A DNA stretch of 32,044 nt, taken from contig QCKS01000016.1 of the NCBI GenBank assembly GCA_003215175.1, positions 1 to 32,044 on the forward strand. The letters run 5' to 3'. The notes below the pieces were generated by a model, which did not search any database, was not told the origin of the DNA, and saw only the letters and a program-made list of their open reading frames with translations. Below, piece after piece: positions 3,178 through 31,699 of the stretch. This stretch comes from Acidimicrobiales bacterium AG-410-I20. Lineage in GTDB: Bacteria; Actinomycetota; Acidimicrobiia; Acidimicrobiales; MedAcidi-G1. How positions within the stretch are numbered: the stretch's first letter is position 1; every line of letters begins with the position of its first letter. The position numbers and the translations under genes are program-made.

Positions 3178-3927
3178 CTAGAAAAGAGAACGCAAAAGGA
3201 GAGCGATAGCCCCCGCAGTTGAAAGAGTGTAAATGAAGAAAGCAATCTTTCCAGAATCAACACGAGAACGTAAAGGACCTGAAATCAAAACTCCAATCAC
3301 AGCGGCAGGCAGCAAAAGTAAAGAGTTCCAAATGTCACTCAACTCGAATTGACCACCCAAGATAAGCCCAAAGATAGATATGGAAGATCCAATGACAAAG
3401 TAAGGAGACATTGTCGCTCGAAACGAAGGACCAGGCAGATCCTTCAAAGCCAAAGCCATTGGTGGTCCACCGACGCCCACTGATGTAGCCATAAATCCGC
3501 TTACCCCACCAGCAAGAGTCACAGTCTTTCTACTCCGGGGCAAAGAAAGACCACTTACTTGTAGAGCAATAGCAACTAAAAGAAGAACCCCAAAGAGGAG
3601 CCCTAAGCGGTCGGTGGAGATCAGACTCAACGCCAACACTCCAAGAACGACTCCAGGTATTCGACCTATTAAGGCGGAGACTAACGCAGGTCGATCAACA
3701 TTCCCGCGTTCACGCCACGCCAACATTAAATTCATGATTGGATTCACAATTAAAATGGGAATTGGTATAAGTTCAGGATTAATGAGAGCCAAAAGCGGAA
3801 CCGCGAAGAGATTCGCCCCAAAACCAATAGAGCCTTGAATTGCAGCGGCAATAATAAATATCGAAATGACTAAAAAAATCTCAATAGGAGTCATACCAAA
3901 TTTGATACTAACTCTTTTCACGCTCAA
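3178..3927 (-). CDS. TauE/SafE-family sulfite/anion exporter
   Basis: A 249-residue integral membrane protein of the TauE/SafE family, with about eight hydrophobic segments in two halves. The first half opens with AAAIQGSIGFGANLFAVPLL and the second with AGGVSGFMATSVGVGGPPMAL; the paired GxxxGFGA and GVGGPP motifs are the family signature. Members export sulfite, sulfoacetate or related organic anions from the cytoplasm. It is the first gene of the minus-strand run leading to the TauD-like oxygenase, which would produce sulfite if it acts on a sulfonate. The start is uncertain: the longest frame begins with TTG at 3927 (an AGCAGG-like site precedes it), while an ATG at 3894 (MTPIEIF) gives a more typical N-terminus. 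Promoters for this and the divergent CNNM gene must fit in or around the 39-base gap. Confidence 0.85.
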   Translation of the reverse strand: MSVKRVSIKFGMTPIEIFLVISIFIIAAAIQGSIGFGANLFAVPLLALINPELIPIPILIVNPIMNLMLAWRERGNVDRPALVSALIGRIPGVVLGVLALSLISTDRLGLLFGVLLLVAIALQVSGLSLPRSRKTVTLAGGVSGFMATSVGVGGPPMALALKDLPGPSFRATMSPYFVIGSSISIFGLILGGQFELSDIWNSLLLLPAAVIGVLISGPLRSRVDSGKIAFFIYTLSTAGAIALLLRSLF

Positions 3928-3966
3928 CTATGAGCCTGCTTTTCATTTCGCTAAAGTAAAGACTTA

Positions 3967-5229
3967 ATGAACACCATCTCTGGTCTTCTCATCATGACAG
4001 CACTCTTGGTGCTCAACGCGAGTTTCGTGGCAGCTGAGTTCAGCCTGCTAGCTCTAGATCGAGCCCGAGTAGAAGCACAAGCAAACCAAGGTAGCCGAGT
4101 ACACCGATCTCTTTTACGTGCTTTACAACGTCTGACTCTAACTATGTCAGGATGTCAATTCGGTATTACGTTGTCGGCTTTGATGCTGGGCTTTGTTGCT
4201 GAACCAACAATGGCAAGATTGTTAACTGGCGATGACCACCCCACTGGATTGAGTGTTCTCCTAGCCATTTTTGTGGCAACAGTTCTTCATTTAATTATCG
4301 GCGAACAGGTCCCAAAATACATCGCACTCGCGGCACCAGAAGCGACTTCACGAAAGTTAGTTCCCCTACTAGCCGGATACAGCGTCTTAGTGCGCCCTTT
4401 AGTGCGGCTACTCAACGGCACAGCTAACTCTGTTGTGCGCCGATTCGGTGTTGAACCTAGAGACGAAATAGATACCTCACGAACTTCGGAAGAACTTGAA
4501 ACACTCATCACCGAAAGAGCTTCGAGTGTTTTAGACCCAGAAGAAGTTTCACTGCTCACTCGTTCGTTACGTTTTAGCGACAAGACCGCAGTCGATGCAT
4601 TAATACCAAGAGTCGACATTGATGCCTTACAAAGAGCAACGCAGGTCTCCGATCTTATTACCCATGCTTTAGACACTGGCCGATCAAGATTTCCAGTATT
4701 TGATAAGGACCTCGACGACATCATCGGGGTTGTCCACGTCAAGTCGGTTTATCGACTCTCGCCAGAAGAAAGACACACTACACATGTGTCCGAAATTATG
4801 CGAGACATTCTTGCTGTTCCAGAAACAAGAAAACTAGAAGAAATTCTGTCTGATATGAAAAATCGTCGGACACAGATGGCTGTAGTGATAGATGAGCACG
4901 GAGCAACTTCTGGGATCATCACTCTAGAAGACTTATTAGAAGAAATCTTAGGAGAAATAAAAGACGAATATGACAACGATTCAACTGAAGCAGAACTGGA
5001 GAACCCAGGAAGCTTTCTCGTCGCAGGCCGTCTCAACTTTGAAGAAGTATTTGACTCAACAGGATTCAAAATACCTGAAGGACAGTACGAAACTCTCGCT
5101 GGATTTGTCTTAGAGAGACTAGGGCATTTGGCCGAACCTGGTGAAAAAGTCATAGAAGGACAATGGACAATAGAGGTAGTCGAAGTTAAGAGAAGACGAA
5201 TTATCACGTTAAGGGTTACTTCGTCATGA
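3967..5229 (+). CDS. CNNM/CorC-type membrane protein (DUF21, CBS pair, CorC/HlyC domain)
   Basis: This 420-residue protein has the full HlyC/CorC-CNNM layout. Residues 1-140 form the DUF21 membrane domain, with the first helix LIMTALLVLNASFVAAEFSLLA and the conserved SGCQFGITLSALMLG and IIGEQVPKYIAL stretches. Residues about 200-330 hold two CBS domains (ALIPRVDIDAL, TGRSRFPVFDKDLDDIIGVV, TQMAVVIDEHGATSGIITLEDL). Residues about 345-420 are the CorC/HlyC FAD-like domain. Family members are linked to Mg2+/cation efflux or membrane-stress tolerance. The neighbouring gene, overlapping by 4 bases, is a shorter paralogue; this tandem pair mirrors mycobacterial Rv1842c and Rv1841c. It is divergent from the TauE gene, 39 bases away. 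Confidence 0.9.
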   Translation: MNTISGLLIMTALLVLNASFVAAEFSLLALDRARVEAQANQGSRVHRSLLRALQRLTLTMSGCQFGITLSALMLGFVAEPTMARLLTGDDHPTGLSVLLAIFVATVLHLIIGEQVPKYIALAAPEATSRKLVPLLAGYSVLVRPLVRLLNGTANSVVRRFGVEPRDEIDTSRTSEELETLITERASSVLDPEEVSLLTRSLRFSDKTAVDALIPRVDIDALQRATQVSDLITHALDTGRSRFPVFDKDLDDIIGVVHVKSVYRLSPEERHTTHVSEIMRDILAVPETRKLEEILSDMKNRRTQMAVVIDEHGATSGIITLEDLLEEILGEIKDEYDNDSTEAELENPGSFLVAGRLNFEEVFDSTGFKIPEGQYETLAGFVLERLGHLAEPGEKVIEGQWTIEVVEVKRRRIITLRVTSS

Positions 5230-6269: not shown

Positions 6270-7037
6270 TTAGGCTCCTATGGCGTGGAAGCCTCCATCT
6301 ACATGAATCATCTCACCGGTAGTTGATGGAAACCAATCAGAGAGCAATGCAACACATGCACGTGCTACTGGGTCAGGATCGTGAATATCCCACCCAAGTG
6401 GAGATCGCTCACCCCAAACTTCCTCAAACGCAGCGAAACCGGGGATACTTTTTGCAGCCATAGTTCGGATAGGTCCAGCAGCAACCATATTTACGCGTAT
6501 GCCCTCTGCTCCCAGAGATTTCGCTAAGTAACGAGAAGTTGACTCTAAAGCAGCTTTTGCTACCCCCATCCAGTTGTAAGCCGGCCAAGCAAAACGTGCA
6601 TCAAAATCCAGACCAACAATAGAACCACCATCAGTCATTAAAGGGCGGACGACTTCAGCAACAGTCTTTAGCGAGTAGGCAGAAATTTCCATAGCTACCG
6701 ACACGTCTTCCCAAGTAGGGGTCATGAAATCTTCCCCCAGGCAAGCTTCAGGAGCGAAACCTATGGCGTGTAAAGCTCCATCTATTCGACCCCAAGATTC
6801 AGTTAGTTCATTTTGTAAAGCGGAGGCTTGTTCGGCTGACGTGACATCAAATTCAAGCACCTCTGGCACTACAGGAAGCTTCTTAGCGGTTCGTTGAGTC
6901 AGACGCATTCCGCGACCAGCCCCAGTCAGAATGATCTCCGCACCCTGTTCTTGAGCTAAACGAGCAACAGAATATGCCAATGAAGCATCAGTAAGAACAC
7001 CGGTTATCAACAACTTCTTATCGTCAAGAATACCCAT
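6270..7037 (-). CDS. fabI: Enoyl-[acyl-carrier-protein] reductase (NADH), InhA/FabI type
   Basis: This 255-residue SDR-fold enzyme performs the last reduction of the fatty-acid elongation cycle (trans-2-enoyl-ACP to acyl-ACP). It closely follows M. tuberculosis InhA: LLITGVLTDASLAYSVARLAQEQGA at the NAD-binding N-terminus, GSIVGLDFDA, PAYNWMGVAKAALES with catalytic Y154 and K161 (InhA Y158/K165), AAGPIRTMAAKSIPGF, and the C-terminal DGGFHAIGA. F145 aligns with InhA F149. The residue matching InhA S94 is alanine (A91, in LHAIGFAP); see the findings. Start ATG has a good GGGAGAG ribosome-binding site 5-6 bases upstream. It is divergent from thrS across 73 bases. No FabG is adjacent, unlike the mycobacterial mabA-inhA operon. 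Confidence 0.92.
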   Translation of the reverse strand: MGILDDKKLLITGVLTDASLAYSVARLAQEQGAEIILTGAGRGMRLTQRTAKKLPVVPEVLEFDVTSAEQASALQNELTESWGRIDGALHAIGFAPEACLGEDFMTPTWEDVSVAMEISAYSLKTVAEVVRPLMTDGGSIVGLDFDARFAWPAYNWMGVAKAALESTSRYLAKSLGAEGIRVNMVAAGPIRTMAAKSIPGFAAFEEVWGERSPLGWDIHDPDPVARACVALLSDWFPSTTGEMIHVDGGFHAIGA

Positions 7038-12071: not shown

Positions 12072-13058
12072 TTAATCCAAAGGTGGAAGAGTTCCTTCCT
12101 GCATTTTGAAAAGAAAATAGTCACTTCCAGTTATTGTTGACGGATCACAACCAGGAGTGCGGATATTTTCAAGTTGCTCCCAGATCATTCCATCGGAAGA
12201 AACTTGGTGCCTCATTCCGTCAAGGGAACACGTCAGCAAACGAAACATTCCATCTTGATATGACAGATCCGGAACACCTCCTGTCACAGCAGTGATTAAT
12301 TCAAAAGTACCACCTGGTTCTTTACGAAAAATTTCACTCTTTGGGTTTTCTTCCGACAGAATTCCAACCGCTAACCACCAAGTCTCTTCAATAATCACTA
12401 CGGACGGGTCAAACCGGTCCTCCATATCAAGTAGGGCGTATTGCGAAGAAAAGTTTTGTCCATCGTTAGAAGTGAGGTAGCAGATCGGGCCGGGGGGGCC
12501 TTGTCGGAGAAAACCATCTAAAACAATCAACCCAATAGTTGAGTCATCAATAAGAACAACATCAGGGTCGACCATTCCAGAAAAAACTTCTCCATCAACA
12601 GTTATTGGACCATGGTCAGTAAACACATCTTCTTCCAAAGTGCCATGATGTATCACATGATCCTCTGCAGCTACCCACCAAATATGAATAGTGTCTCCGA
12701 TCATCAATCCATCAGCTACCGACGCTTGCTCTATAAGAAGTTCAGAGTCAGCAATTCTTATGTCTTCAAGTTGGCCAATCCAAATTTGATGAGAACTCAA
12801 AGGATCCGCATATTCAGGTAGGCCATGGCCGTCTTCACTGCATTTAGCTAAAGGAGCGGTTGTGGTAGTAGTAGCAAGAGTTGTAGGGGGGGAAGTGACA
12901 GTTGTTGAAACTTGTGATGGTGTAGAAGTTGAAGAAAGAGAAGGCTCAGTAGTCGAGGTTGAAGGCAGATTCACACCTTCTTGATCCGAACCACCCGAAG
13001 AGTTCGAACATCCATAAGTCAGGAATACAGAAAGTAAGAGATAAAGAAGTTTCTTCAC
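12072..13058 (-). CDS. Lipoprotein with Ser/Thr-rich linker and probable beta-propeller domain
   Basis: A 328-residue exported protein of unknown function. The signal MKKLLYLLLSVFLTYGC predicts lipidation at C17. Residues 18-70 are a low-complexity Ser/Thr/Pro linker (STSTTEPSLSSTSTPSQVS, TTTTTAPL). The remainder shows repeated short strands with patterns such as IWWVAAEDHVIHHGT, DPDVVLIDDSTIGLIVLDG, ICYLTSNDGQNFS and DPSVVIIEETWWLAVG, each with D-x-S/D-x-V and 'S-D/N-DG' turns. This is the look of a five- or six-bladed propeller of the sialidase/glycosyl-hydrolase-43 type, but I see no clear catalytic set. It is divergent from the LppM-like gene (34 bases) and convergent with the repeat lipoprotein. 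Confidence 0.7.
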   Translation of the reverse strand: MKKLLYLLLSVFLTYGCSNSSGGSDQEGVNLPSTSTTEPSLSSTSTPSQVSTTVTSPPTTLATTTTTAPLAKCSEDGHGLPEYADPLSSHQIWIGQLEDIRIADSELLIEQASVADGLMIGDTIHIWWVAAEDHVIHHGTLEEDVFTDHGPITVDGEVFSGMVDPDVVLIDDSTIGLIVLDGFLRQGPPGPICYLTSNDGQNFSSQYALLDMEDRFDPSVVIIEETWWLAVGILSEENPKSEIFRKEPGGTFELITAVTGGVPDLSYQDGMFRLLTCSLDGMRHQVSSDGMIWEQLENIRTPGCDPSTITGSDYFLFKMQEGTLPPLD

Positions 13059-16817: not shown

Positions 16818-17018
16818 TCAGACTTTACGAACCTCGAGGGCTTCTGGGCCCTTGCGTCCTTCGCCAACTTCAAATTCTACTTCTTGTCCTTCGTCCAAAC
16901 TTTTATAGCCGGAACCATCAATATTTGAATAATGAACAAAGACGTCTTCGCCTTCTTCAACGGAAATGAATCCGTATCCTTTTTCAGAATTAAAAAACTT
17001 TACTGTGCCACGTGGCAT
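16818..17018 (-). other. Cold-shock domain segment with possible internal start (CspA-like, 66 aa)
   Basis: The last 66 codons of the helicase gene encode a complete, ordinary-length cold-shock protein beginning [17 protein letters not shown]. Its first codon is ATG, as in free CspA proteins. The bases before it (AAAGAAAG, about 9-16 upstream) are only a weak ribosome-binding site. Whether this is expressed as a domain only or also as a separate protein cannot be decided from sequence. Confidence 0.55.
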
Positions 17019-18479
17019 GGTATTCACTTTCTTTGATTTATTAACCGAGCCGTGGTTGGCACGATGAGCAAAGTCTACGCGAGAAGTAGGCAATAACCGT
17101 TCATCCTCATACGCAGAATTTTTTTGGAGGTGGGCGCGGCGAGCTTTACGGTTAGGTCCATTGGGTCCCACTGCAGCTAGATGCCTGTCTTTTTGTCTCG
17201 GTTTTTTCTTGTTCTGTTTTTTTCGATTTTGAGTTTTTTTAGTCTCCTGAAAGTGAGCAGATTTCTTTTGTTTTTTTGGAGGATTATCAGAAGTAGAAGT
17301 GTTGTTCTTTGGTTTATTTTTTTTGTTCTCGGGTAAGGATTTTTGAATAGGGGGAAGATAGTCCTTCAGCCAATGTGGGGTAGGCGAGGAAATTTCTTCC
17401 TGTAGGTCGATTTTTTGTTGCATTCTTTTTGCTTCTTTTATTTGGTTTGGTAAAAGCAAAGAAATTACAATTCCGTTTCTTCCAGCTCTAGCTGTTCGTC
17501 CAGATCGATGAATGTAGGCTTTGTGATCCTCAGGAGGGTCAAAGTGCATTACAGCAACAACATCATCTACATGTATTCCTCTAGCTGCAACATCTGTTGC
17601 AATCAGAACTTGCACTTTATTCTTTGTGAAATCGTTGAGCGCTCGAGATCTTTGGTTTTGACTGCGACCACCGTGGATAGCGGCTGCTTTGATTCCTGAT
17701 TTTGACATTTGTTTTGTAAGACGATCAACTCCATGTCGGGTTCTACAGAAGACGATAGCTGGCCAAGCAGAGTTAAGAATTTCAGCTGCTATTTCAAGGC
17801 GATTGCTTTTATCTACTTTCCAAAAGAAGTGATGGGCTGCAGTTATGTCAGGGGTTTCGTTACCTACCGTATGAGTGACTGGATTATTTAGGTGTTGTTT
17901 AATTAGTTGTGCAACATCTCCATCTAAAGTCGCAGAGAATAAAACGGTTTGACGCTCTTTGCTGGTTTGGTGGAGTAAACGATTAACAGAGGGCATGAAT
18001 CCCATGTCTGCCATACGGTCAGCCTCGTCGAGTACGACTTTTTCCACCGAGGAGAGATTTACCGCTTTTTGTTGAATTAGATCTTCAAGTCTCCCCGGAC
18101 AAGCTACGAGTATGTCTACTCCCTTCTTTAGGGTGTGTAGTTGGGCGCCATATCCAACACCGCCGTAAACAACTCCAACGCGAACGTCGCGTGAGAGGGA
18201 ACGCAATTCTGTATAAATTTGCTCTGCAAGTTCACGAGTTGGAGATAAAACTAAGGCGTGAGGATATTTGGATTGTGAGCGTTTAGAAGAAACGATCAGC
18301 GGAATACCAAATGCCAGAGTTTTCCCTGATCCAGTAGGAGCGCGACCGCAAACGTCTTTTCCGGCGAGTAAGTCACTGATCGTTGCTGATTGAATCTCAA
18401 AAGGTTTATGGATACCCCTTTGTTCCAAGTCGTTACAAATAGACGCGGGAACACCTATTTCTGAAAAAGTTAAAGTCAT
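16818..18479 (-). CDS. DEAD-box RNA helicase fused to a C-terminal cold-shock domain
   Basis: A 553-residue ATP-dependent RNA helicase with a complete motif set: Q motif (PFEIQSATI), motif I APTGSGKT (47-54), Ia PTRELA, II DEAD (151-154), III SAT (182-184), [33 protein letters not shown] (324-334). Residues 380-487 form a Lys/Asn/Gln-rich disordered tail, typical of RNA-annealing helicases. Residues 488-553 are a full CspA-type cold-shock domain with RNP1 KGYGFI and RNP2 VFVHY, in the same frame with no stop. An in-frame ATG at the domain boundary (17018 on the minus strand) could also yield free CspA. The role is inferred as unwinding of structured mRNA in the cold. Start ATG has AAAGGA upstream; a long structured leader precedes it. 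Confidence 0.92.
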
Positions 18480-28911: not shown

Positions 28912-29109
28912 TTACCCGATAGAGCAACTCATATCAGCGCCACAGCACATTGGTGACTTAATCTTCTTACTTTCATCGTTCACACACATTGATACTTGAA
29001 CAGTGGAACCATCGTCTTTAGTAAGAATTCCGTTCACTAAAGGTTCGTTGCAGCAACCACAACTCGCATTTACTGACATTCCACACGCATCACAGGTATA
29101 AGTTGACAT
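28912..29109 (-). CDS. Cysteine-rich small protein, probable zinc-ribbon-like
   Basis: A 65-residue protein from ATG at 29109, MSTYTCDACGMSVNASCGCC and onwards. Cysteines occur as CDAC, CGCC, a single C (MCVN), then CC and C (MCCGADMSC), nine in all, suited to binding one or two metal ions or an iron centre. The frame extends four codons upstream to 29121, but a perfect GGAGGA site 4-5 bases before 29109 fixes the start. I do not recognise the family, and it is not the classic rubredoxin pattern. It converges on the SDR gene and is followed on the other strand by the tRNA. Confidence 0.75.
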   Translation of the reverse strand: MSTYTCDACGMSVNASCGCCNEPLVNGILTKDDGSTVQVSMCVNDESKKIKSPMCCGADMSCSIG

Positions 29110-29113
29110 TGAG

Positions 29114-29119
29114 TCCTCC
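29114..29119 (-). promoter_or_regulatory. Shine-Dalgarno site of the cysteine-rich small protein
   Basis: GGAGGA on the minus strand, 4 bases before the ATG at 29109. It overlaps the codons of the longer upstream frame and decides the start. Confidence 0.8.
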
Positions 29120-29249
29120 AATAATTAGTTATAGAAATTTTAGTTCATCTATGAGAAAGTACTGATTATTTGAGAATCGCTCTTATTTTTTACCCAGGAT
29201 GTTGAAGCATAATAGTTGGTTTTCATGTCAAGTCTGCGAGAATGCCGTT

Positions 29250-29322
29250 GGGCCGGTAGCTCAGTGGTTAGAGCAAGCGACTCATAATCGCTCGGTCGTG
29301 GGTTCGATCCCCACCCGGCCCA
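29250..29322 (+). tRNA. tRNA with CAU anticodon, probably tRNA-Ile2 (lysidine-modified)
   Basis: A 73-base cloverleaf with complete arms: acceptor GGGCCGG (29250-29256) with CCGGCCC (29315-29321) and discriminator A (29322), D arm GCTCAGTGGTTAGAGC, anticodon stem AGCGA/TCGCT (29276-29280, 29288-29292) around CTCATAA with anticodon CAT (29283-29285), and T arm GTGGG-TTCGATC-CCCAC. No CCA is encoded. A CAU anticodon can be Met or, after TilS lysidine modification, Ile for AUA codons. The D arm and GCGACTCATAATCGCT stem-loop match E. coli ileX very closely, so Ile2 is favoured over elongator Met. It lies 7 bases from the stop of the minus-strand fusion gene. Confidence 0.93.
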
Positions 29323-29329
29323 CACTTCT

Positions 29330-30931
29330 TTATCTAGTGATTTGGGCTAGCTCTTGGGCAAGCTCAACTATTTCTTTAGAAAGTTCTACTTCTTCACACC
29401 ATGAAGGACGTAACGCAGAAACTCCATGAAGAGCACCGAGAACGTTCCCAACCATTAACCCTGTTGAGTCCGAATCACCCGAATGATTCACAGAAAGAAG
29501 AAGCGCTTCATTTATATCTTCTTCTGCTAAAACAACAGCGATGGTGATCGCCAGAGCTTCTTCACCAACCCATGCTCCTCCAAGGGTTTCTAAATCCCAC
29601 CCATCTAACTTTCCGGAAGGATTGTTTAGAGCGAGATCAACGGCAGCGTCAATGGCTTTAACCACATTTTCCCCTTGAGGGTCTTCGGACGCCATGTGGC
29701 GGCCCGAAATAATAGCGTCAAGGAGTGCATCTCCTTGCAGGATGCGATGAATTATTACTGCTTGAACTCCCGCTGGTATCCACCCATCAGGGTGACTGTG
29801 TGTTAGCGCAGCGGTCTCACATCCAATGTGGTACGCTTCTTCAGTGGTTGAGGCAAAAAATCCAACTGGAGCCACTCGCATAATCCCACCACAGCCTTTA
29901 CTGTTATTCAACGAAGACGAGGTAGAACCAGGTATCCCGCTTTTTATAGAACTGGTGCACGTACGCCCAGGAGCGCGACGATTGTGAAGAGCGGGGATAT
30001 TTAATAATCCAAATGAGGGATCGATGTGTGGAGGGACTGTATCAAATTCTGCCCAGTCTCTTTGTGTGTAATACCAGCGGCGGTATGCTTCCCAAACCTC
30101 AGTAATTGGATCAGTACCGTTTTTTGATGATTCGATCAATCCTTCGGCAGTAAACAACGTCATTTGCGTGTCATCGGTTATTGGTGCATCGTGCCCATAA
30201 GCAGGAGTAAAAGTGGTAGCGCCTCCTTTGCCGAAAACTTCTTCGATTTCCTTTAACGTATGGAATTCAAGCGCTGCTCCTAGAGCATCGCCGATCGCTC
30301 CGCCAAGAAGAGAACCCACGACTTTACTCGTGTATAGATCGTAATTTTTGAATGAATTTGGGGCATCGGATTTATGTTCAGACCATGTTTTAATGAAATC
30401 GCGTTGCTCAGGCATCTCAGGAGATGAACGGTGCTGCCCATCAACAGCCCCTGTTCGTAGCTCATCGATAAGTCTTTGAACATTGCCTGCTGTGGCAAGA
30501 CCATTTCGTCGAAGCCAGCAACCAAGAACCGTTCCCGTTCTTCCAAATCCACCCCAGCAATGCAGATAAACAACTTTTCCATCTGCCAAGTGACTGTCAA
30601 TTGCATCCAACACAACGACCATTTCTTCATCTGTCGGAAGACCAAGATCGCGTATCGGATAGCGTTCCACAATTGCCTGATCAGCGACAAACTTGTCATA
30701 CTGATCAAGTCGAGCATCGGAATTATTTTTTCCGGATTGATCTTCAGTAAGGTTAATGAAAACCTCAACCCCAGCATCTAAAAGTTGCTGAGTGACCTCT
30801 GGGCGCCCTCCAAACTCTCCTGAATCTTTTTTCCCTGGATAAGCACCAGCTATGAATTGGTTCTCAATAACCCAATAGGAACGGTGAGTGGGTCCTGGGG
30901 CTCTCTTGGTGAAAAGGGTGTAATTCGTCAT
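29330..30931 (-). CDS. Fusion of tyrosine/dual-specificity phosphatase and ADP-ribosylglycohydrolase
   Basis: A 533-residue two-domain protein. Residues about 1-185 form a cysteine-phosphatase domain with the P-loop HCWGGFGRTG (C125, R131) and a likely general acid at D95 or D101. Residues about 200-533 form an ADP-ribosylglycohydrolase (DraG/ARH-type) domain with GAIGDALGAALEF (211-223), the metal motif TDDT (252-255) and SGDSDSTG (484-491), whose Asp residues bind the two Mg ions. Both domains look intact. The protein would remove phosphate and ADP-ribose groups, perhaps from one substrate or modification pathway; the substrate is unknown. It is not clustered with an ADP-ribosyltransferase or kinase here. 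The opposite-strand nitroreductase starts beyond its N-terminus. Confidence 0.9.
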   Translation of the reverse strand: MTNYTLFTKRAPGPTHRSYWVIENQFIAGAYPGKKDSGEFGGRPEVTQQLLDAGVEVFINLTEDQSGKNNSDARLDQYDKFVADQAIVERYPIRDLGLPTDEEMVVVLDAIDSHLADGKVVYLHCWGGFGRTGTVLGCWLRRNGLATAGNVQRLIDELRTGAVDGQHRSSPEMPEQRDFIKTWSEHKSDAPNSFKNYDLYTSKVVGSLLGGAIGDALGAALEFHTLKEIEEVFGKGGATTFTPAYGHDAPITDDTQMTLFTAEGLIESSKNGTDPITEVWEAYRRWYYTQRDWAEFDTVPPHIDPSFGLLNIPALHNRRAPGRTCTSSIKSGIPGSTSSSLNNSKGCGGIMRVAPVGFFASTTEEAYHIGCETAALTHSHPDGWIPAGVQAVIIHRILQGDALLDAIISGRHMASEDPQGENVVKAIDAAVDLALNNPSGKLDGWDLETLGGAWVGEEALAITIAVVLAEEDINEALLLSVNHSGDSDSTGLMVGNVLGALHGVSALRPSWCEEVELSKEIVELAQELAQITR

Positions 30932-31027
30932 AGAGATTTCTCTTCAGATGGTTTCTATTCTTTAAGGTATTTCTTTCGGTTAAGAAACTATCTCAGTGGT
31001 GTACGAGATGCCAATAGGATTGTTGTT

Positions 31028-31699
31028 ATGGAATTAGAAGAAGTCATAAGAACAACTTTCGCATGCAGGGAATTCACAGATGAACCTATTACCGACGAAA
31101 CTTTGTATCGAATTCTGGAGCTCGCCCGTTTTGCTCCCTCGGGAGGTAACCGGCAAGGCGCTCACGTCATTGTGGTTAGAGATCGAGATATTCGCCAGAC
31201 TCTTGGAGAGATGTGTAATCGAACACTCAGGGTTTATGGCGCCCAAGTAGATGCAGGAGAAAATCCTTTCAATCCCATCACTCCATCAAGCGTGGATCCT
31301 GTTGAAGCCGTTAAGAAGCCTGATGAAAGATTTGAGATGTTTGAGAGATGGGGAGATCTTCCCGTCGTTCTTGTTGTCAGCATAGATTTGTCAACAGTCG
31401 CAGCTATGGACAAAGAACTGGATCGAGTCGGTGTCATTTCAGGGGGCTCCATCTACCCCCTTGCCTGGAACATTCTTCTCGCGGCAAGAACCGAAGGTCT
31501 AGCCGGTGTGCTTACCACCGCGGTGGTTCCTGAAGAGGACGAAGCAAAAACGCTTCTAGGTTTACCAGACAATCATGCAATAGCGGCTGTGATTCCATTA
31601 GGTGTACCAGTCAAACAACTGACTAAGCTTTCTCGTCGTGAAGTCGAAGAGTTCACAACAATCAACCAGTACGACGGACCTAGGCTCACAAATATTTAG
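31028..31699 (+). CDS. Nitroreductase-family FMN oxidoreductase
   Basis: The 223-residue protein from ATG at 31028 is a nitroreductase-fold flavoprotein. FACREFTDEPITDETLYRIL and ELARFAPSGGNRQGAHVIVV (FMN-binding SxxNxQ-type start) are typical, and GSIYPLAWNILLAARTEGLAGVLTT in the C-terminal half matches the family core. It probably reduces quinones, nitro compounds or an unsaturated carbonyl. It is unrelated in detail to the deiodinase-like gene at 23553 (no EEEINY lid). The frame opens at 30857, inside the divergent fusion gene, but its first 57 residues are not family-like, and AGGA about 10 bases before 31028 supports the later start. A hairpin (31728-31750) follows. Confidence 0.85.
   Translation: MELEEVIRTTFACREFTDEPITDETLYRILELARFAPSGGNRQGAHVIVVRDRDIRQTLGEMCNRTLRVYGAQVDAGENPFNPITPSSVDPVEAVKKPDERFEMFERWGDLPVVLVVSIDLSTVAAMDKELDRVGVISGGSIYPLAWNILLAARTEGLAGVLTTAVVPEEDEAKTLLGLPDNHAIAAVIPLGVPVKQLTKLSRREVEEFTTINQYDGPRLTNI

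Follow-up and report, generated by a model that had tools for sequence, protein, structure and literature searches.

Systems centered on an ADP-ribosylglycohydrolase (ARG) that is fused to, or encoded next to, a phosphatase of the rhodanese-phosphatase (R-P) superfamily were described by Iyer et al. in 2022 (PMC9503650, section 3.8, Figure 7). They occur in actinobacteria, planctomycetes and proteobacteria, have no coupled transferase and were proposed to counter ADP-ribosylation imposed from outside by phages; an adjacent Nudix- or WYL-type regulator was reported in over 42% of them, so that it is common but not required. In Deinococcus radiodurans, the DRB0100-DRB0098 operon of ligase, PARG and HD phosphatase/kinase (PMC11833690) likewise teams an ADP-ribosylhydrolase with a phosphatase, there in nucleic-acid end-processing, but its macrodomain PARG and HD phosphatase have unrelated folds and are encoded by separate genes.

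Here we analyzed a stretch of 32,044 nucleotides from Acidimicrobiales bacterium AG-410-I20 (hereafter the window) that encodes such a pair in a single chain. As in the systems of PMC9503650, the ARG is fused to an R-P-superfamily Cys phosphatase and no coupled ADP-ribosyltransferase (ART) or sirtuin was found, and relatives of the window protein carry the Nudix or WYL regulator, vWA, ARPP-1, nuclease and helicase genes listed there. Unlike many of those systems, the window copy stands alone, with no Nudix- or WYL-type regulator beside it and no adjoining chaperone, ARPP or nuclease gene, all of which are variable features. The architecture is therefore ordinary, having the core features of the published kind and lacking the variable ones, and the novelty implied for the pairing by an earlier sequence-only reading was forestalled by the 2022 publication. 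New here are the measured asymmetry of the coupling, the exchange of partners and the orphan case. The features of the locus, in window coordinates, are as follows.

29330..30931, minus strand: phosphatase–ADP-ribosylglycohydrolase fusion gene, 533 aa, ATG start (ORF, Pfam, 79% identical full-length fusion in the sister genome)
30362..30931, minus strand: residues 1-190, DUSP23-like Cys phosphatase (PTP) domain with D95, C125 and R131 (Pfam Tc-R-P and PTP-SAK, PDB matches including DUSP23, VIA-align Z 15-16 over residues 14-189)
30533..30562, minus strand: P-loop HCWGGFGRTG, residues 124-133 (H, C, G127, G128, G130, R131 and G133 invariant in the alignment)
30329..30376, minus strand: linker, residues 186-201 (low conservation, length variable in the alignment)
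29333..30328, minus strand: residues 202-533, ADP-ribosylglycohydrolase (ARH/DraG, PF03747) domain (Pfam E 5.7e-67; Foldseek and VIA matches to ARH3, MJ1187, DraG, a Tri1-type immunity protein and ARH1)
30167..30178, minus strand: TDDT motif, residues 252-255, with metal ligands D253 and D254 (invariant; aligned to DraG TDDT)
29459..29479, minus strand: GDSDSTG motif, residues 485-491, preceded by S484, with D486 and D488 (both invariant; aligned to DraG GDADTTG)
30932..31030, minus strand: upstream region of the fusion gene, common to the divergent nitroreductase gene (without the operator-like element of ARG-VWA genes)
29250..29323, plus strand: tRNA-Met (CAT), separated by 7 bp from the fusion gene's 3' end, a neighbor outside the mechanism (ARAGORN)

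The earlier reading had described an intact Cys-based phosphatase (C125, R131) and an intact ADP-ribosylhydrolase (TDDT, SGDSDSTG) joined in one chain, and our analyses agree on each point. Both phosphatase residues were placed correctly, lying in the loop HCWGGFGRTG, and are invariant in nine fusions; the ARG motifs are present in a domain with full-length Pfam and fold matches; and the 533-aa ORF of the minus strand has exactly the stated coordinates, 29330-30931, and its frame is kept in relatives. The phosphatase part matched the Pfam families Tc-R-P (E 1.4e-14, residues 48-144) and PTP-SAK (E 1e-11, residues 45-147) and, weakly, PTP-NADK, a phosphatase fused to NAD kinase. The ARG part matched ADP_ribosyl_GH over residues 206-508 (E 5.7e-67, profile positions 1-285 of 287) and, at 226.8 bits versus a cut-off of 26.2, passed the curated threshold of PF03747 in a full-length match. 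In the alignment of the nine fusions, which come from two phyla, H124, C125, R131, D95, T252-T255, D486 and D488 are all invariant. The DUSP-type signature, an HCx5R loop (C125, R131) with an upstream Asp (D95), is complete, and D95, in the stretch PIRDLGLP, is the likely general acid of the phosphatase. Both two-metal motifs, TDDT (252-255) and GDxDxTG (485-491), are present in the ARG domain. Overall, the two domains look catalytically complete and functionally coupled.

A search of PDB sequences returned DUSP23, Tk-PTP and ShufPTP for the N-terminal part and DraG, ARH3, ARH1 and Thermus and Methanocaldococcus relatives for the C-terminal part. An AlphaFold2 model built from 11 sequences (pLDDT 80.5, pTM 0.65) agreed with both: residues 14-189 form a PTP fold (Z 15-16 to ShufPTP, Tk-PTP and DUSP23), and residues 198-533 superpose on ARH3/DraG-type structures with Z 34-37. 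The best of these superpositions, on ARH3 (Z 37, rmsd 2.4 over 295 residues), indicates that the all-helical ARH fold is present, and Foldseek and VIA gave matches of the ARG half to ARH3, MJ1187, DraG, the Tri1-type immunity protein and ARH1. The window protein thus shares its fold over 198-533 and its metal motifs with the ARH/DraG hydrolases (DraG 2woc, ARH3, ARH1, Tri1, MJ1187), but is only ~18–24% identical to those structures over the aligned parts and has the extra phosphatase domain. It also scored far below the NCBIfam cut-offs of the DraG equivalog TIGR02662 (68.7 versus 337.05 bits) and the Tri1 immunity protein equivalog NF041672 (72 versus 490 bits). With the DUSP23/VHZ-like phosphatases (Pfam Tc-R-P, PTP-SAK, PTP-NADK), the N-terminal domain has the HCxxGxGRTG loop, the upstream Asp and the fold in common; it differs from them in being fused to an ARG and in having its own N-terminal motif, GPTxRSYWVV...AGAYPG, which is specific to the phosphatase family of the fusion.

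To quantify the pairing, the order was searched with the phosphatase domain alone and then with a separate ARG profile, and 30 loci were read. An ARG was fused to the phosphatase or located within 1.5 kb at 29 of these 30 loci (28 of 29 if the window's own locus is left out), as five PTP-ARG fusions, ten ARG-PTP fusions and 14 pairs of separate, mostly overlapping genes. Since the order averages only ~0.5 ARGs per genome (about 60 matches in 118 genomes), the expectation for a chance neighborhood is well below 1%. The search for the domain architecture and its neighbors, which the sequence-only reading had proposed, therefore found relatives that fuse the two domains in either order or keep them in adjacent, often overlapping genes, and not at distant loci. 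These data bear on the explanation that two unrelated neighboring enzymes with no shared pathway were fused by chance. Loss of one stop codon would suffice for such an event, and adjacent-gene versions do exist (G009, G041, G044); however, fusion in both orders and gene overlap are seen repeatedly, 29 of 30 loci are paired and the pairing survives an exchange of partners, which leaves a chance fusion highly improbable.

The reverse relation is looser, with a phosphatase of the fusion's type found at 13 of 30 ARG loci of the order, some of them weak matches; a sample across the phylum contained 22 other ARG loci, all of them without one. Beyond the order, the pairing recurs in Rhodobacterales plasmids, and overlapping phosphatase and ARG genes occur in one Bacteroidota MAG. 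No ARG was annotated within 4 kb of the relatives of the phosphatase on cyanobacterial plasmids (36–39% identity), one of which adjoins a MazF-type toxin; a phosphatase with no ARG within 1.5 kb was also found once in the order (G130) and once elsewhere in the phylum (G591). A universal tie between the phosphatase and an ARG was consequently abandoned, given the exceptions outside the order in the plasmid and phylum-wide checks. There is strong evidence that the coupling is near-obligate within the order, and it is not universal outside it.

Other loci of this phosphatase family have features of their own. On a Sphaerotilus plasmid (L164:1936-8486), a relative of the phosphatase without an ARG lies beside Sir2, DUF4804, MoxR and VWA genes, and this locus is possibly a further ADP-ribose conflict system. 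In the Bacteroidota MAG (L053:3542-5480), a DUF1810 gene directly precedes the overlapping phosphatase and ARG genes, which hints that DUF1810 belongs to ADP-ribose processing. In G006, the gene directly upstream of that genome's fusion gene (L016:11058-12287) encodes an HD_4 domain joined to a second member of this phosphatase family. A viral scan with the fusion protein alone gave no match, whereas a scan with the alignment identified a fusion in L121 and an unpaired phosphatase of the Rhodobacterales type in L153. The latter is a phage contig of 336 kb from IMG/VR, and its phosphatase gene (3689-4270) lies ~2.2 kb from a NADAR gene (6500-7015).

What the phosphatase does is constrained by the exchange of its partner. 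Relatives within the window's own family of genomes bear the same phosphatase (45–66% identity) together with a different ARG (25–28% identity), whose motifs read AGNG...GHDTDT instead of the KGCGG...GDSDST of the window's fusion, whereas fusions on plasmids of the Rhodobacterales Leisingera, Cereibacter and Fuscovulum combine an ARG of the window's kind with a different phosphatase. The two domains accordingly give conflicting trees. In the phosphatase tree the window type groups with the AGNG relatives (SH-aLRT 97) and the AU test rejects placing the window with Rhodobacterales (p-AU 0.001). The ARG tree instead joins the window to Rhodobacterales (SH-aLRT 99), and a grouping with the AGNG relatives is rejected (p-AU 1.2e-5). 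Long branches meet in the ARG tree and its deep order is unsure, and the groupings used here rest on the AU tests. These phylogenies show that the phosphatase was kept while the ARG was exchanged: on at least one occasion the pair was formed anew with another ARG, and fusion has taken place in either order.

A phosphatase that stays constant across differing ARGs most likely has its substrate on the side that is common to all ARGs. Acceptor specificity differs among DraG, ARH1 and ARH3, and ADP-ribose is the product common to ARGs. The exchange thus favors, as an inference, a phosphatase substrate common to all ARGs, either the ADP-ribose product or the phosphate that it capped, over one protein target. 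This narrows the role of the phosphatase in ARG/phosphatase modules, a question standing since 2022. It also bears on the two mechanisms that the sequence-only reading had put forward, as sequential action on an ADP-ribose-type product or a phosphate end would fit the exchange better and dual erasure on one target would fit it less well. Under the latter, both domains would act on one protein target bearing a phosphate and an ADP-ribose, thereby resetting it. The small Cys phosphatases related to DUSP23 do bear the names of protein phosphatases, and a fusion would give a fixed 1:1 stoichiometry. It is hard, however, to square one shared target with the replacement of the ARG by one of a distant lineage next to a retained phosphatase, or with a pair that occurs in three phyla among different neighbors, and neither a kinase nor a transferase lies near the fusion. 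We consider dual erasure unlikely.

The lack of a matching transferase or kinase nearby, as claimed earlier, was upheld when about two dozen window ORFs were scanned with Pfam: no ADP-ribosyltransferase, sirtuin or protein kinase was found among them, the single kinase by name being a thiamin pyrophosphokinase. Genome-wide, neither KptA nor DarT was found in this 83% complete genome; a search with the Pfam ART family PF01129 gave no match anywhere, controls included, and so carries no information. The KptA route, by way of ADP-ribose 1''-2'' cyclic phosphate, is the obvious source of phospho-ADP-ribose, and KptA was sought as that source here but not found in the 83% complete genome. The fusion's neighbors are the tRNA-Met, an SDR gene and the divergent nitroreductase gene. 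No defense gene lies beside the fusion, the tRNA neighbor being the only island-like sign, and PADLOC-DB 2.0.0 gave no match for the window protein or for four relatives and associates.

Relatives have a richer context. Some have an NrtR-type Nudix regulator, an ARG-VWA protein and ARPP-1 beside the pair; others, on plasmids, have an AAA ATPase, a WYL regulator, a PD-(D/E)XK nuclease and a UvrD helicase beside the fusion, and AAA, WYL and helicase genes also accompany a fusion on an IMG/VR contig, these latter surroundings being of a conflict type. The context of relatives is ADP-ribose related, as evidenced by the NrtR-type Nudix regulator, ARG-VWA, ARPP-1, the phage-contig NADAR and the Sir2 of one plasmid. 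A second ARG locus of the window's genome, C6, has a Nudix regulator, an ARG-VWA protein and another phosphatase. The element TTGACAAKAAC-N-GWTATAGTCA precedes all seven ARG-VWA genes read, one copy being weaker (G006), and has one exact copy in the genome, at C6. It is the probable operator of the Nudix regulator. In the seven promoters (L020:1090-1200, L034:7985-8095 and five more), its inverted AKAAC/GWTAT pair overlaps the -35/-10 layout. The region upstream of the fusion scored 5.5 for this element versus 32.1 at C6 and a mean of 5.6 for shuffles, and membership of the fusion in the regulon of the C6 locus was rejected on this background-level score. As far as the motif tells, the window's fusion is an orphan module outside the C6 regulon.

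In the ARG-VWA proteins encoded next to Nudix regulators, a metal motif is changed (e.g., GSDT for TDDT) and GDTDT is kept; these proteins may be ADP-ribose binders or altered enzymes. Those with the changed motif are the following.

L034:8089-10053: ARG-VWA protein of the genome's C6 locus
L022:5936-7663: ARG-VWA protein
L020:1189-2901: ARG-VWA protein
L025:9833-11557: ARG-VWA protein

The sister genome G007 has a 560-aa fusion that is 79% identical to that of the window and is flanked by the same nitroreductase and tRNA-Met/SDR genes. Identity between the two is 44% in the linker versus 77–81% in the domains. The dN/dS of the whole fusion was ~0.08 versus 0.025–0.05 for two flanking genes, values that were taken from NG86 since YN00 rates were saturated and that are rough, dS being saturated. 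The distribution is patchy, covering three of eight genomes of the genus and, for the phosphatase domain, 35 of 397 genomes of the order. These findings are relevant to the explanation that the pair has no conflict role and turns over soluble NAD(P)-derived ADP-ribose compounds (O-acetyl-ADP-ribose, 2'-phospho-ADP-ribose, ADP-ribose-1''-phosphate) as metabolic housekeeping. The weak PTP-NADK match, the HD_4-phosphatase fusion beside the G006 copy and the NrtR-type regulators all point to NAD(P)/ADP-ribose, and the window copy has neither an adjoining defense gene nor a PADLOC match. Against this stand the patchy presence in the genus (3/8) and the order (35/397) and the plasmid copies, whose operons also contain nuclease, helicase and WYL regulator genes. 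Housekeeping turnover is in our opinion a doubtful explanation, although less so than dual erasure.

The reading that we prefer, on which we are evenly divided between confidence and doubt, is that the fusion belongs to the ARG/R-P kind and works as a clean-up enzyme in two steps, reversing externally imposed ADP-ribosylation. The ARH/DraG-type domain would hydrolyze the 1''-glycosidic bond between ADP-ribose and its acceptor, using a two-metal center predicted to be held by D253, D254, D486 and D488, and the DUSP23-like domain would remove a phosphomonoester by a Cys125/Arg131/Asp95 mechanism. The substrate of the phosphatase would lie on the ADP-ribose side, as phosphorylated ADP-ribose or a breakdown product, or alternatively would be the terminal phosphate exposed once ADP-ribose leaves a phosphate end. 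ADP-ribose itself carries no monophosphate, so the former option requires either that it be phosphorylated or that another enzyme, for example a Nudix hydrolase, takes part. The phosphate-end option has backing from outside, because the Streptomyces coelicolor ARH-like protein SCO5809 and other hydrolases take ADP-ribose off RNA phosphate ends (PMC11833690). The module would undo ADP-ribosylation coming from outside, potentially from phage or competitor toxins, an external origin being suggested by the finding of no partner transferase in the genome. From these comparisons we infer both enzymatic activities, a protective role and a phosphatase that acts on the ADP-ribose side.

Several points count against the clean-up reading: the phosphatase family is not tied to ARG outside the order, ADP-ribose lacks a monophosphate, and the window copy is without regulator, chaperone, ARPP and nuclease and, apart from the tRNA neighbor, without signs of a defense island. 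A bolder version, which we consider improbable and offer tentatively, is that the phosphatase is dedicated to phospho-ADP-ribose (or to ADP-ribosylated ends) and stays constant in a modular clean-up enzyme whose other half, the ARG, is exchanged to match the modification met. To our knowledge, phospho-ADP-ribose phosphatase activity is known only from macrodomains and other unrelated folds. The window protein, a compact single chain without regulator or accessory genes, is convenient for testing both half-reactions.

Several minor features were identified around the fusion and elsewhere in the window. The tRNA flank of the fusion (29199-29330) looks like a variable spot, and the sister genome has an extra 195-aa ORF of no known kind between its fusion and tRNA-Met (L052:5758-6432). 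Between the SDR gene and the tRNA lies a Cys-rich 69-aa ORF (28912-29121, minus strand) with no Pfam match and a metallothionein-like look. A 328-aa ORF at 12072-13058 (minus strand) had no Pfam match at E 1e-8, and the gene at 16818-18479 (minus strand) encodes a DEAD-box helicase and a C-terminal cold-shock domain in a single chain.
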